The translations under genes and the position numbers were made by a program. Below are positions 45,617 through 49,117 of a stretch of 64,000 nt of DNA, in pieces. Source of the stretch: Vibrio injensis. GTDB taxonomy: Bacteria > Pseudomonadota > Gammaproteobacteria > Enterobacterales > Vibrionaceae. The notes beneath the pieces were generated by a model. That model saw only the letters and a list, made by a program, of their open reading frames with translations. It had not been told where the DNA came from and searched no databases. Every line of letters begins with the position of its first letter. The first letter of the stretch is position 1. The stretch covers positions 135,581 to 199,580 of the forward strand of contig NZ_BDJF01000006.1 in the NCBI RefSeq assembly GCF_001895205.1, written 5' to 3'.

Positions 45617-45737
45617 AAGTCACCTCGTTCAGTCGTATTGGCTATTGTTGTGCTGTGCCGCTTTAGGTATTCTATGTTGATCTATTACTACCTGTTCGAA
45701 CCGAACTCACAAATTCCAAGATAACCGGATGTCATCG

Positions 45738-48314
45738 ATGCAAGATCAATATAACCCGCAAGATATTGAACAGAAAGTTCAACAGCACTGGGACAACAAC
45801 AAAACCTTTGTTGTAAGTGAAGACCCAAATAAAGAAAAATTCTACTGTCTTTCGATGTTTCCTTATCCAAGCGGTCGACTGCACATGGGCCACGTACGTA
45901 ACTACACGATTGGTGACGTCGTTTCTCGCTTCCAACGTTTACAAGGTAAAAACGTCATGCAACCGATTGGTTGGGATGCGTTTGGCTTGCCGGCCGAAAA
46001 TGCTGCAGTTAAAAATAAAACAGCACCAGCGCCATGGACTTACGAAAATATCCAATACATGAAAAACCAGCTCAAATTACTGGGCTTTGGTTATGACTGG
46101 AGTCGTGAATTCGCTACCTGCCGTCCTGAATACTACCGTTGGGAACAAGAGTTTTTCACCAAACTGTACGAAAAAGGGTTGGTTTATAAGAAAACCTCCT
46201 CAGTAAACTGGTGTCCTAATGACCAAACCGTACTTGCTAACGAACAAGTGGAAGACGGCTGCTGCTGGCGCTGTGATACGCCTGTTGAGCAAAAAGAGAT
46301 CCCACAGTGGTTTATTAAGATCACCGCTTACGCGCAAGAATTGCTTGATGATTTAGATAACCTTGACGGCTGGCCAGAAATGGTTAAAACCATGCAACGC
46401 AATTGGATCGGCCGCTCTGAAGGGGTAGAACTGAGCTTCCAAGTTAAAGATCAGGCGCAAGATCTGGAAGTCTATACAACTCGCCCAGACACGCTGATGG
46501 GGGTTACCTATGTGGGTATTGCCGCCGCGCACCCTCTCGCGGTTCAAGCTGCTGCCAATAATCCGCAACTTGCGGCCTTTATCGAAGAGTGTAAAAACAC
46601 CAAAGTTGCCGAAGCCGAACTCGCGACGATGGAGAAAAAAGGCATGGCGACGGGCCTGACAGCTATCCATCCTTTAAATGGCCGAGAAGTGCCTATCTAT
46701 GTCGCGAACTTCGTACTAATGCACTATGGTACTGGTGCGGTAATGGCCGTTCCGGCACACGACCAACGCGATTACGAATTTGCCACCAAATACGGCTTAG
46801 ATATCATCCCGGTGATTAAGCCTGAAGATGGCAGCGAGTTAGATATCAGCCAGCAAGCTTATACAGAAAAAGGCGTACTGTTTGACTCTGGTGAATTCGA
46901 CGGCCTAACTTTCCAAGCGGCTTTTGATGCCATTTCAGCAAAACTCGAAGCGCTAGGTAAAGGTAAAAAGACCGTTAACTTCCGTCTACGTGACTGGGGC
47001 GTTTCTCGTCAGCGCTACTGGGGTGCCCCCATCCCAATGGTCACCACTGAAGATGGTCAAGTTCATCCCGTCCCTGCCGACCAATTACCAGTAATCCTGC
47101 CTGAAGATGTCACAATGGATGGTGTAACCAGTCCGATTAAAGCCGATAAAACGTGGGCTGAAACTACATTTAATGGTCAACCAGCACTGCGTGAAACCGA
47201 TACTTTTGATACCTTTATGGAATCTTCTTGGTATTACGCACGTTACTGCTCACCACAAGCAGACGATATTTTAGACCCAGCTAAAGCCAACTACTGGCTA
47301 CCGGTTGATCAATACATCGGTGGTATTGAACACGCTTGTATGCATCTACTCTACTCACGCTTTTTCCATAAGCTATTGCGTGATGCTGGTTATGTCACCT
47401 CCGATGAACCATTCAAACAATTACTTTGCCAAGGCATGGTATTAGCTGATGCTTTCTATTATAGCAATGAAAAAGGCACCAAAGAGTGGATTTCACCTAC
47501 TGATGTTAAAGTAGAACGCGATGGTAAAGGTCGCATTATTTCAGCGATTGATCATCAAGGCCGACAAGTTGAGCACTCAGGCATGATCAAAATGTCTAAG
47601 TCAAAAAATAACGGCATTGACCCGCAAGAGATGGTCGATAAATACGGTGCAGATACAGTACGCTTATTTATGATGTTCGCTTCGCCTGCCGATATGACAT
47701 TGGAGTGGCAAGAGTCTGGTGTTGAAGGAGCAAACCGCTTCCTAAGACGGGTATGGAAGCTTGTCGCTGAACATACCGCTAAAGGCGCGGCGGTTGCGGT
47801 ACAAAGCGATGCCTTAAATGCCGACCAAAAAGCGCTGCGTCGTGATGTGCATAAAACCATTGCTAAAGTGACTGATGATATTGCTCGTCGTCAAACCTTT
47901 AACACGGCGATTGCTGCGATCATGGAGCTGATGAATAAACTCACTAAAGCGCCACAAGAATCTGAACAAGACCGAGCTATTTTGGATGAAGCGGCCAAAG
48001 CCATCACCTTAATGCTTTACCCTATTGCACCACATATCTGTTTTGAAATGTGGCAAGCACTAGGTGAAGCGGATATTGACCAAGCAACGTGGCCGACATA
48101 CGACGAAGCAGCATTAGTTGAAGATCAGAAACTGGTTGTCCTGCAAGTTAATGGTAAGTTACGTGGTAAATTAACCGTTGCTGCGGATGCCAGCAAAGAA
48201 CAGGTTGAAGCGCTTGGTCTACAAGATGAAAACGTACAGAAATTTACTGATGGTTTAACCATTCGTAAAGTTATTTACGTACCGGGCAAACTGCTCAATA
48301 TTGTGGCGAACTAA
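45738..48314 (+). CDS. leuS: Leucyl-tRNA synthetase
   Basis: This class I synthetase charges tRNA-Leu and edits misactivated amino acids. The HIGH motif appears as HMGH (about residue 47), the CP1 editing domain contains the TTRPDT segment, and KMSKS is intact ([11 protein letters not shown]). I prefer the ATG at 45738 (MQDQYNPQ), which gives 858 residues and aligns with the family start. The ATG at 45729 adds three residues and lacks a better ribosome-binding site. Confidence 0.97.
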
Positions 48315-48431
48315 TCGCTAAGCTGATTGTCTGTATAGCCAAGCAACGTTAGGTTATCCGCTTACTATTCATGGTGGTCATCAATATCGAGCTGACCACC
48401 GAAATAGACTAAGCTGCCTTCGTTATCAGCA

Positions 48432-48500
48432 AGTAAACAGGGCTTGTGCCCTGTTTACTTATCTCAGTTTATCGAACGAGGTAAGCTAAGATAAGTAAAC
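48432..48500 (+). promoter_or_regulatory. Mutually exclusive hairpins in the leuS-lptE spacer
   Basis: Arm 1 (AGTAAACAGGGC, 48432-48443) pairs 12/12 with 48448-48459. The segment 48453-48464 (GTTTACTTATCT) also pairs 12/12 with AGATAAGTAAAC at 48489-48500, and this second stem continues inward with eight more pairs after one mismatch, closing on a 6-nt loop. The two stems share 48453-48459, so they cannot form together. The second stem ends 23 nt before the lptE start. It resembles a terminator/antiterminator pair, though the first stem has only a weak U tract. Confidence 0.6.
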
Positions 48501-48523
48501 TCACTGACGAGAACTAATACCCC

Positions 48524-49117
48524 ATGCGTTTTATATTGCCTGTAACAACTCGACCTTGGTTGATTCTTTTGTTGATCACTTCAACATTTCTTGCTGGCTG
48601 CGGCTTCCATCTACGTGGAGACTACGACATTCCAGAAGAGTTGAGTATGATGTCTCTGACCAGTAACGATCAATACAGCACCTTAACACGGCTGGTCAAA
48701 GGTCAACTGCGCATGAACGAGATCCAACTCGTTGAACCTGCAAGCAATGTAGCTAATTTGCATCTCAATGGGGAAAGCCTGAGTGAACGAACCTTGTCGC
48801 TGTATCAAAACACTCGCGCTGCCGAAAAAGAACTGACGTTTAACACTTCTTATCGCGTCACCATACCAGACGTTGGGACTAAGACATTTTCTACCAGCGT
48901 AACCCGAAGTTACTTGGATAACCCACTGACTGCATTAGCAAAATCAGCTGAACGAGAAATGATTGTCGACGAAATGCGTAAACTGGCCGCCAGTCAAATT
49001 ATTCGCCAAATGGCTCGCCTAAAGGCCAGCATTCCTAATGGCAGTTTTGAAGAGACTGACTCTAACGTCCAAACTCAATCTGAGCTTGATAACTCAAATA
49101 CCATTAATATGTTATAG
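48524..49117 (+). CDS. lptE: LPS-assembly lipoprotein LptE
   Basis: LptE plugs and helps assemble the outer-membrane LPS translocon LptD. The 197-residue protein has a lipoprotein signal with lipobox LAGC (Cys at about residue 26), followed by GFHLRGDYDIPEEL, typical of the family. holA follows after 8 bp, the usual order in gammaproteobacteria. Confidence 0.95.
   Translation: MRFILPVTTRPWLILLLITSTFLAGCGFHLRGDYDIPEELSMMSLTSNDQYSTLTRLVKGQLRMNEIQLVEPASNVANLHLNGESLSERTLSLYQNTRAAEKELTFNTSYRVTIPDVGTKTFSTSVTRSYLDNPLTALAKSAEREMIVDEMRKLAASQIIRQMARLKASIPNGSFEETDSNVQTQSELDNSNTINML

Follow-up and report, generated by a model that had tools for sequence, protein, structure and literature searches.

Tandem RNA hairpins conserved between leuS and lptE in Vibrio

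INTRODUCTION

In Escherichia coli, the intergenic region that separates rplL from rpoB carries a partial terminator and, downstream of it, an RNase III hairpin. Other regulatory RNAs, such as attenuators and riboswitches with exclusive folds, contain a segment able to pair with either an upstream or a downstream partner, and a segment with this ability also occurs in the spacer between leuS and lptE in Vibrio. Both of these genes are essential in Vibrio, and in Gram-negative bacteria lptE, which acts in LPS assembly, and the genes that follow it are essential.

Here we describe two hairpins, HP1 and HP2, that lie in tandem in this spacer within a 64-kb stretch of DNA (the window), and we compare them with the corresponding loci of related bacteria. 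No Rfam family matches at its gathering score anywhere in the window, and the weak matches reach at best 12.2-16.3 bits against cut-offs of 50-80, in agreement with the original prediction made from this DNA, which recognised no known riboswitch. A literature search, mostly judged by titles, found no paper on the leuS-lptE spacer. In the main texts of two relevant papers, leuS is unnamed in that on E. coli RNase III sites (PMC5371410), and leuS, rlpB and lptE are absent from that on direct RNA sequencing of V. parahaemolyticus (PMC8577284). With no Rfam match and no paper found on the spacer, we count the HP1/HP2 tandem as a new conserved element, one whose general kind is already known.

RESULTS

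Two abutting hairpins in the leuS-lptE spacer

The spacer comprises 209 nt between the end of the leuS stop codon and the lptE ATG (Table 1). The upstream gene matches NCBIfam TIGR00396 (leuS_bact) with 1248.6 bits, over the cut-off of 548.4, and the best and sole family match of the downstream reading frame is NCBIfam NF008062 (LptE; E 1e-43), whose 149.4 bits lie under the curated cut-off of 235.

Table 1. Features of the leuS-lptE region, in positions of the window
Feature	Position	Strand	Description
leuS, leucyl-tRNA synthetase, upstream gene	45729-48314	+	ORF of 861 aa
HP1, 13-bp hairpin	48431-48460	+	arms 48431-48443/48448-48460, 13/13 paired; loop 48444-48447 (4 nt)
Segment able to join either HP1 or HP2	48453-48460	+	8 nt
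HP2, 20-bp hairpin with one C.A mismatch	48453-48500	+	arms 48453-48473/48480-48500; loop 48474-48479
Probable ribosome-binding region	48506-48513	+	GACGAGAA, outside HP1 and HP2; judged from sequence
lptE, LPS-assembly lipoprotein, downstream gene	48524-49117	+	ORF of 197 aa

HP1 is of the terminator type, with a GC core (CAGGGC/GCCCTG) that is flanked by A and T tracts and is followed by a poor U-tract, TTTACTTA. In HP2, the outer 12 positions of each arm (48453-48464 with 48489-48500) pair perfectly, and inward of these lie the C.A mismatch (48465/48488), eight pairs that include two U.G pairs, and a 6-nt loop. The original prediction, which placed two inverted repeats upstream of lptE and described the downstream one as a hairpin of about 20 bp with a 6-nt loop that ends 23 nt before the gene, was accurate in each of these respects. 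It also held that one segment pairs 12/12 in both directions, and here the geometry is different: 48448-48460 takes part in the upstream pairing and 48453-48464 in the downstream one, with 8 nt in common.

A perfect 12-bp inverted repeat appeared anywhere in 11 of 20,000 mononucleotide shuffles of the spacer. Moreover, the interval 48420-48524 folds at -38.0, compared with -18.4 +/- 3.3 for 200 dinucleotide shuffles (z -6.0, no shuffle as low). Taken together, these comparisons make it unlikely that the repeats of HP1 and HP2 arose by chance. Another perfect hairpin, of 8 bp (GGTGGTCA/TGACCACC), occupies 48373-48400 in the 5' half of the spacer; a similar hairpin is kept in Vibrio metschnikovii, with an altered loop and a wobble in place of one pair.

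Compatibility of the two folds

The two folds had been predicted to be mutually exclusive, as in attenuators and riboswitches, with the choice of partner for the shared segment setting lptE expression. Alone, HP1 is worth -21.5 kcal/mol and HP2 -23.9 kcal/mol. When the shared 8 nt are divided between them in each of the nine possible ways, both hairpins form and the energy stays between -32.4 and -33.2 kcal/mol; the minimum-energy fold likewise holds both, each slightly shortened. The folds therefore coexist at essentially equal energy for every split. A direct repeat, AAGTAAAC, is present at 48431-48438 and 48493-48500, and it allows the HP1/HP2 junction to slide without energy cost. Furthermore, no T run or U-tract follows HP2 (after 48500) in the window and the ribosome-binding region lies outside the hairpin, so that HP2 is neither a terminator nor a sequestor, and neither state of the supposed switch amounts to a terminator or a mask of the ribosome-binding region.

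Other pairings with the ribosome-binding region were considered. In most sequences of the alignment with flanks (A2, see below), a purine stretch of the GAGA or AGGA type is visible by eye at the ribosome-binding place. A long-range stem that closes both hairpins and hides this region is seen when the window sequence or that of V. metschnikovii is folded, but among 50 sequences its duplex energies are no better than those of shuffles (mean z 0.53, none below -2). The 5' arm of HP2 as an anti-ribosome-binding site fared similarly (mean z -0.45, 2 of 50 below -2), and in the same number of sequences no pairing of the upstream flank or this arm with the ribosome-binding region stood out.

Close relatives bear unequally on the two hairpins. 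In the nearest named record, V. metschnikovii CIP 69.14 (LptE 97% identical), positions 48432 and 48433 are changed and the 3' arm is unchanged, with the loss of two outer HP1 pairs; this uncompensated loss in the upstream arm of a close relative speaks against an exclusive switch. HP2 of the same strain is uninterrupted, with C-G in place of the C.A mismatch of the window and U-A in place of an inner U.G. In another genome with a close leuS match (L033), little of HP1 remains, and HP2 forms an 18-bp stem with perfect pairing. These two patterns indicate that HP2 is steadier than HP1 near the window.

Genus-wide covariation on the coding strand

Matches were obtained in 162 of 196 genus genomes searched, and 80 leuS-lptE spacers were fetched, along with 40 spacers from other genera of the family. 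Fifty-five loci were tandem candidates, from which three differently built loci (L060, L088, L107) and four near copies (L039, L047, L090, L098) were kept out of the main alignment. The latter (A1) thus consists of the window and 48 loci (49 rows), and A2 consists of the same rows plus flanks.

RNAalifold recovers HP1 and HP2 from A1, with 27 pairs of which 19 show compensatory change: six of the nine conserved pairs in HP1 and 13 of the 18 in HP2. Double-change cells number 193, compared with 58.3 after shuffling (0 of 500 shuffles as high). Paired cells make up 96.0% of A1, compared with 83.9% after shuffling and 37-49% for slid structures; this percentage is inflated because the rows were picked for folding as a tandem, and the compensatory changes are less biased in this respect. 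An alignment of this kind had been proposed as a check for compensatory changes, and it reveals covariation in both hairpins, although the outer pairs of HP1 are poorly kept. Six loci (L049, L057, L062, L063, L064, L085) share an ACC/GGT pair in HP2 and, in place of the GAGA found in most other rows, a ribosome-binding stretch that reads AGGATG; they look like one clade.

The kinds of imperfect pair found in the alignment also bear on the level at which the element acts. Among HP2 cells, G.U occurs 78 times and A.C 17 times (46 against 17 when the commonest U.G column is set aside), and the corresponding counts for HP1 are 26 and 3. An excess of G.U over A.C is expected for RNA of the + strand, and it is explained by nothing else. 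The arms of HP2 do hold partly conserved words, e.g. CTTATCT/AGATAAG, which would suit a DNA-level element such as a protein-bound inverted repeat or an extruded cruciform. However, the apical loop and the stem length vary, and the profile described below (R1) scores higher on the gene strand than on the other strand at each compared locus having both. In view of this strand asymmetry, a DNA-level element has scarcely any probability.

The shared segment across species

If HP1 and HP2 competed, the outer HP1 pairs should be kept. In A2, 44-49 of the 49 rows retain each of the HP1 pairs at 48453-48457, and those at 48458, 48459 and 48460, which competition would require, are kept in 23, 17 and 6 rows, respectively. 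The HP2 pairs show the reverse, being kept in 47-49 rows at 48456-48460, in 26 at 48455 and in 9 at 48454; pairing of 48453 with 48500 is possible in 47 of 48 rows, mostly without neighbouring pairs. This pattern places the handover between the hairpins at 48456-48457.

The extent of arm overlap was counted for individual loci. For this count, and for those of hairpin length and HP2-to-start distance, rows that had a gap or a long HP1 were excluded, as were eleven rows in which the automatic fold chose other hairpins or which had none (the window row, L042, L061, L073, L078, L088, L089, L100, L102, L107, L108); the window row was re-added by hand for the overlap count. Among the resulting 56 sequences, the mean overlap is 2.7 nt, compared with 1.54 in a flank-shuffle null that ignores the kinship of rows (largest of 500 null means, 2.2). 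Overlaps of at least 6 nt occur in 7 sequences (1.3 expected) and of at least 4 nt in 23 (6.2 expected), and 12 sequences have none. Six of the seven long overlaps (the window, L034, L035, L037, L040, L052) are alike in sequence, such that the excess lies mainly, but not solely, in the window's own clade. In loci of the sister genus g11, a different segment, AAGCAT, is repeated by eye at the two matching places, and the overlap may therefore have arisen more than once.

The overlap excess and the repeat in g11 are what a switch would predict, and a role of the overlap that is specific to a lineage may exist. Nevertheless, the cost-free coexistence of the folds, the poor upkeep of the outer HP1 pairs (two of which are broken in V. 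metschnikovii) and the rows with no overlap all run against it, and we regard the predicted switch as very improbable. HP1 and HP2 are more likely to be a side-by-side tandem whose members form together, as judged from these sequence comparisons. A striking pattern of two exclusive folds in one genome can thus dissolve once its relatives are compared.

Distribution of the tandem

The profile R1 was used in searches for further tandems. In its own genome this locus scores 66.1 bits (33.8 at the same place on the other strand), and the next unrelated match has 20.8 bits (E 1.5). A scan of both strands of the window for such tandems returned HP1/HP2 alone, on the + strand. A repeat family was considered and set aside: the genome has a single R1 locus (with 150 of 1512 first-look candidates scored) and a single CAGGGC/GCCCTG hairpin.

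Among 150 genomes drawn from the family, 47 match R1 at E <=0.1 (40 from the genus, one from g11 and six from g8). The best match lies directly after leuS in all 40 genus genomes and in the g11 genome, and the six g8 matches sit elsewhere; at least 11 genus genomes in the same draw have no R1 match. At the fetched genus loci, 58 of 80 have gene-strand scores no lower than 43.6 bits, ten of these being outside model building, and 22 score below this value, some of them without an HP2-like hairpin. In the nearest-relative search set, R1 matches 11 of 12 Vibrionaceae loci.

Spacer type differs by genus among the 40 loci from elsewhere in the family (L149-L188). All seven g11 loci match R1 (29.0-35.2 bits), and none of the other 33 does so at E 0.1: 14 (g6, g8, g9) have a single terminator-like hairpin, and 19 spacers, of 0-53 nt by the script's choice of start, are free of hairpins. 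From this distribution, the tandem either originated in the branch that holds g1 and g11 or has been lost outside it. The g11 loci (L160, L164, L166, L167, L170, L171, L184) spell the tandem in other letters (AAGCATAAGC...); AAGCAT is repeated at its two outer ends, and HP2 is followed by a T run. A weak R1 match in genome G119 is an ordinary terminator after a paaZ-like gene, and another in G180 has the same gene context by its translations. Between the paaZ-like gene and paaA of a Vibrio genome other than that of the window (L189:1033-1076), an ordinary terminator carries the HP1 core (AAACAGGGC/GCCCTGTTT) and then an unbroken T7 run.

Termination, promoters and position

HP1 has a GC-rich stem, with T at 4 of the 8 nt after the folded stem and at 5 of the 8 nt after the GC core; across 55 rows, the T count after HP1 is 3-6. 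A scan for consensus terminators made no call in 48200-48700, and HP1 was accordingly passed over. By eye, where HP1 is not fused to HP2 (e.g. L058, L080, L107) it is an ordinary-looking terminator followed by T runs, and in L058, L080, L099 and L102 the upstream hairpin is separate and terminator-like, an HP2-like hairpin often remaining apart from it.

The distance from the end of HP2 to the lptE start is 21-31 nt in 48 of 55 rows (sd 2.5 within those 48) and 59-178 nt from the script-chosen start in the other 7. With these 7 rows removed as outside 15-40 nt, the set of 48 shows a leuS stop-to-HP1 distance that varies from 16 to 88 nt (sd 24). Because the one distance is steady and the other is not, HP2 seems to be set relative to lptE. 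The median length of HP2 is 20 bp, with a range of 15-25 in the 48 rows and 7-32 across all 55. This median agrees with the roughly 20 bp or more of double-stranded RNA expected of an RNase III intercistronic site, although a stem of sufficient length is not in itself such a site.

A consensus promoter scan found none between leuS and lptE in the window. A conserved sigma70-like promoter was likewise rejected: such sites occur in 23 of 73 spacers (taken with the leuS tail), compared with a shuffle mean of 16.1 (range 10-24), and their positions are scattered.

These observations weigh on two further explanations. HP2 might stabilise the 5' end of the lptE message or serve it as a ribosome stand-by structure, or it might be bound by a protein of the ProQ or Hfq type, in each case uncut by RNase III and with HP1 simply the leuS terminator. 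The steady distance to lptE and the upkeep of HP2 structure rather than sequence are in keeping with this possibility, and mRNA-stabilising 5' stem-loops are known in E. coli, as the title of a work in the reference list of PMC5371410 indicates. However, this reading requires an RNA 5' end on or close to HP2, where sigma70-like sites do not stand out, and we consider it possible but unlikely. Alternatively, the hairpins could be two weak tandem leuS terminators serving as plain insulation, with lptE transcribed from its own non-consensus promoter in or just after HP2. The single ordinary terminator-like hairpin of the Photobacterium-like and other genera g6, g8 and g9, where lptE must be transcribed past or after it, and the T run seen by eye after HP2 in g11 loci fit such an arrangement. 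Most Vibrio rows of A2 lack a T run after HP2, though, and the genus offers no promoter excess to set against the empty scan of the window, which leaves plain insulation quite unlikely.

DISCUSSION

A terminator core with a broken U-tract in HP1, the steady spacing of HP2, and the failure to find a conserved promoter or a hidden third pairing together favour weak termination combined with a structured boundary. We tentatively propose, with somewhat less than even confidence, that HP1 is a weak terminator limiting read-through from leuS into lptE and that HP2 is a structured boundary, plausibly an RNase III site. HP1 would be a remnant or a form of the leuS intrinsic terminator whose U-tract has been interrupted. 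Some polymerases would stop there, and others would continue into lptE and the genes that follow. In the read-through RNA, the poor U-tract of HP1 would become the 5' arm of HP2, which could provide lptE mRNA with a structured 5' boundary, some 10 nt upstream of the ribosome-binding region. With its stem of about 20 bp, HP2 is also a plausible RNase III substrate, and cleavage is predicted to part the leuS and lptE messages. The original prediction had suggested that the element couples LPS-assembly expression to leuS read-through; what survives of this idea is a selected RNA structure at a place where leuS read-through could be acted on, and what does not is the exclusive-fold switch.

A more elaborate form of read-through control can also be imagined, in which HP2 has, throughout Vibrio, taken up the weak U-tract of the leuS terminator into its own stem. 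With a freely sliding junction, HP2 would form behind the polymerase without undoing HP1 and would set the share of transcription that reaches the lptE operon, possibly with leuS translation as an input. We consider this proposal improbable; if it were true, the above-chance overlap and its re-creation with other letters in g11 would be functional.

An RNA element that sets the share of leuS transcription reaching lptE would constitute a simple control point throughout Vibrio, and one open to experimental test; the HP1/HP2 tandem is a candidate new family for RNA libraries. Although its shared segment recalls attenuators and riboswitches, the tandem differs from them in that its folds are compatible, the overlap is unconserved, and there is no downstream terminator or sequestor. 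With the RNase III sites described in E. coli mRNAs and intergenic regions (PMC5371410), it shares an intergenic double-stranded stem within an operon, here a predicted one. HP1 resembles intrinsic (Rho-independent) terminators in its GC core and flanking A and T tracts, but differs from them in its broken U-tract and in escaping the consensus scan. The known arrangement that the tandem appears to resemble most is the rplL-rpoB spacer of E. coli. In both cases, a terminator-type hairpin that is leaky, or in Vibrio predicted to be so, and then a long hairpin precede the next essential gene of an operon. Unlike in the E. coli spacer, the two hairpins in Vibrio abut without a gap, such that the U-tract of HP1 is the 5' arm of HP2, and both termination and cutting are predicted.
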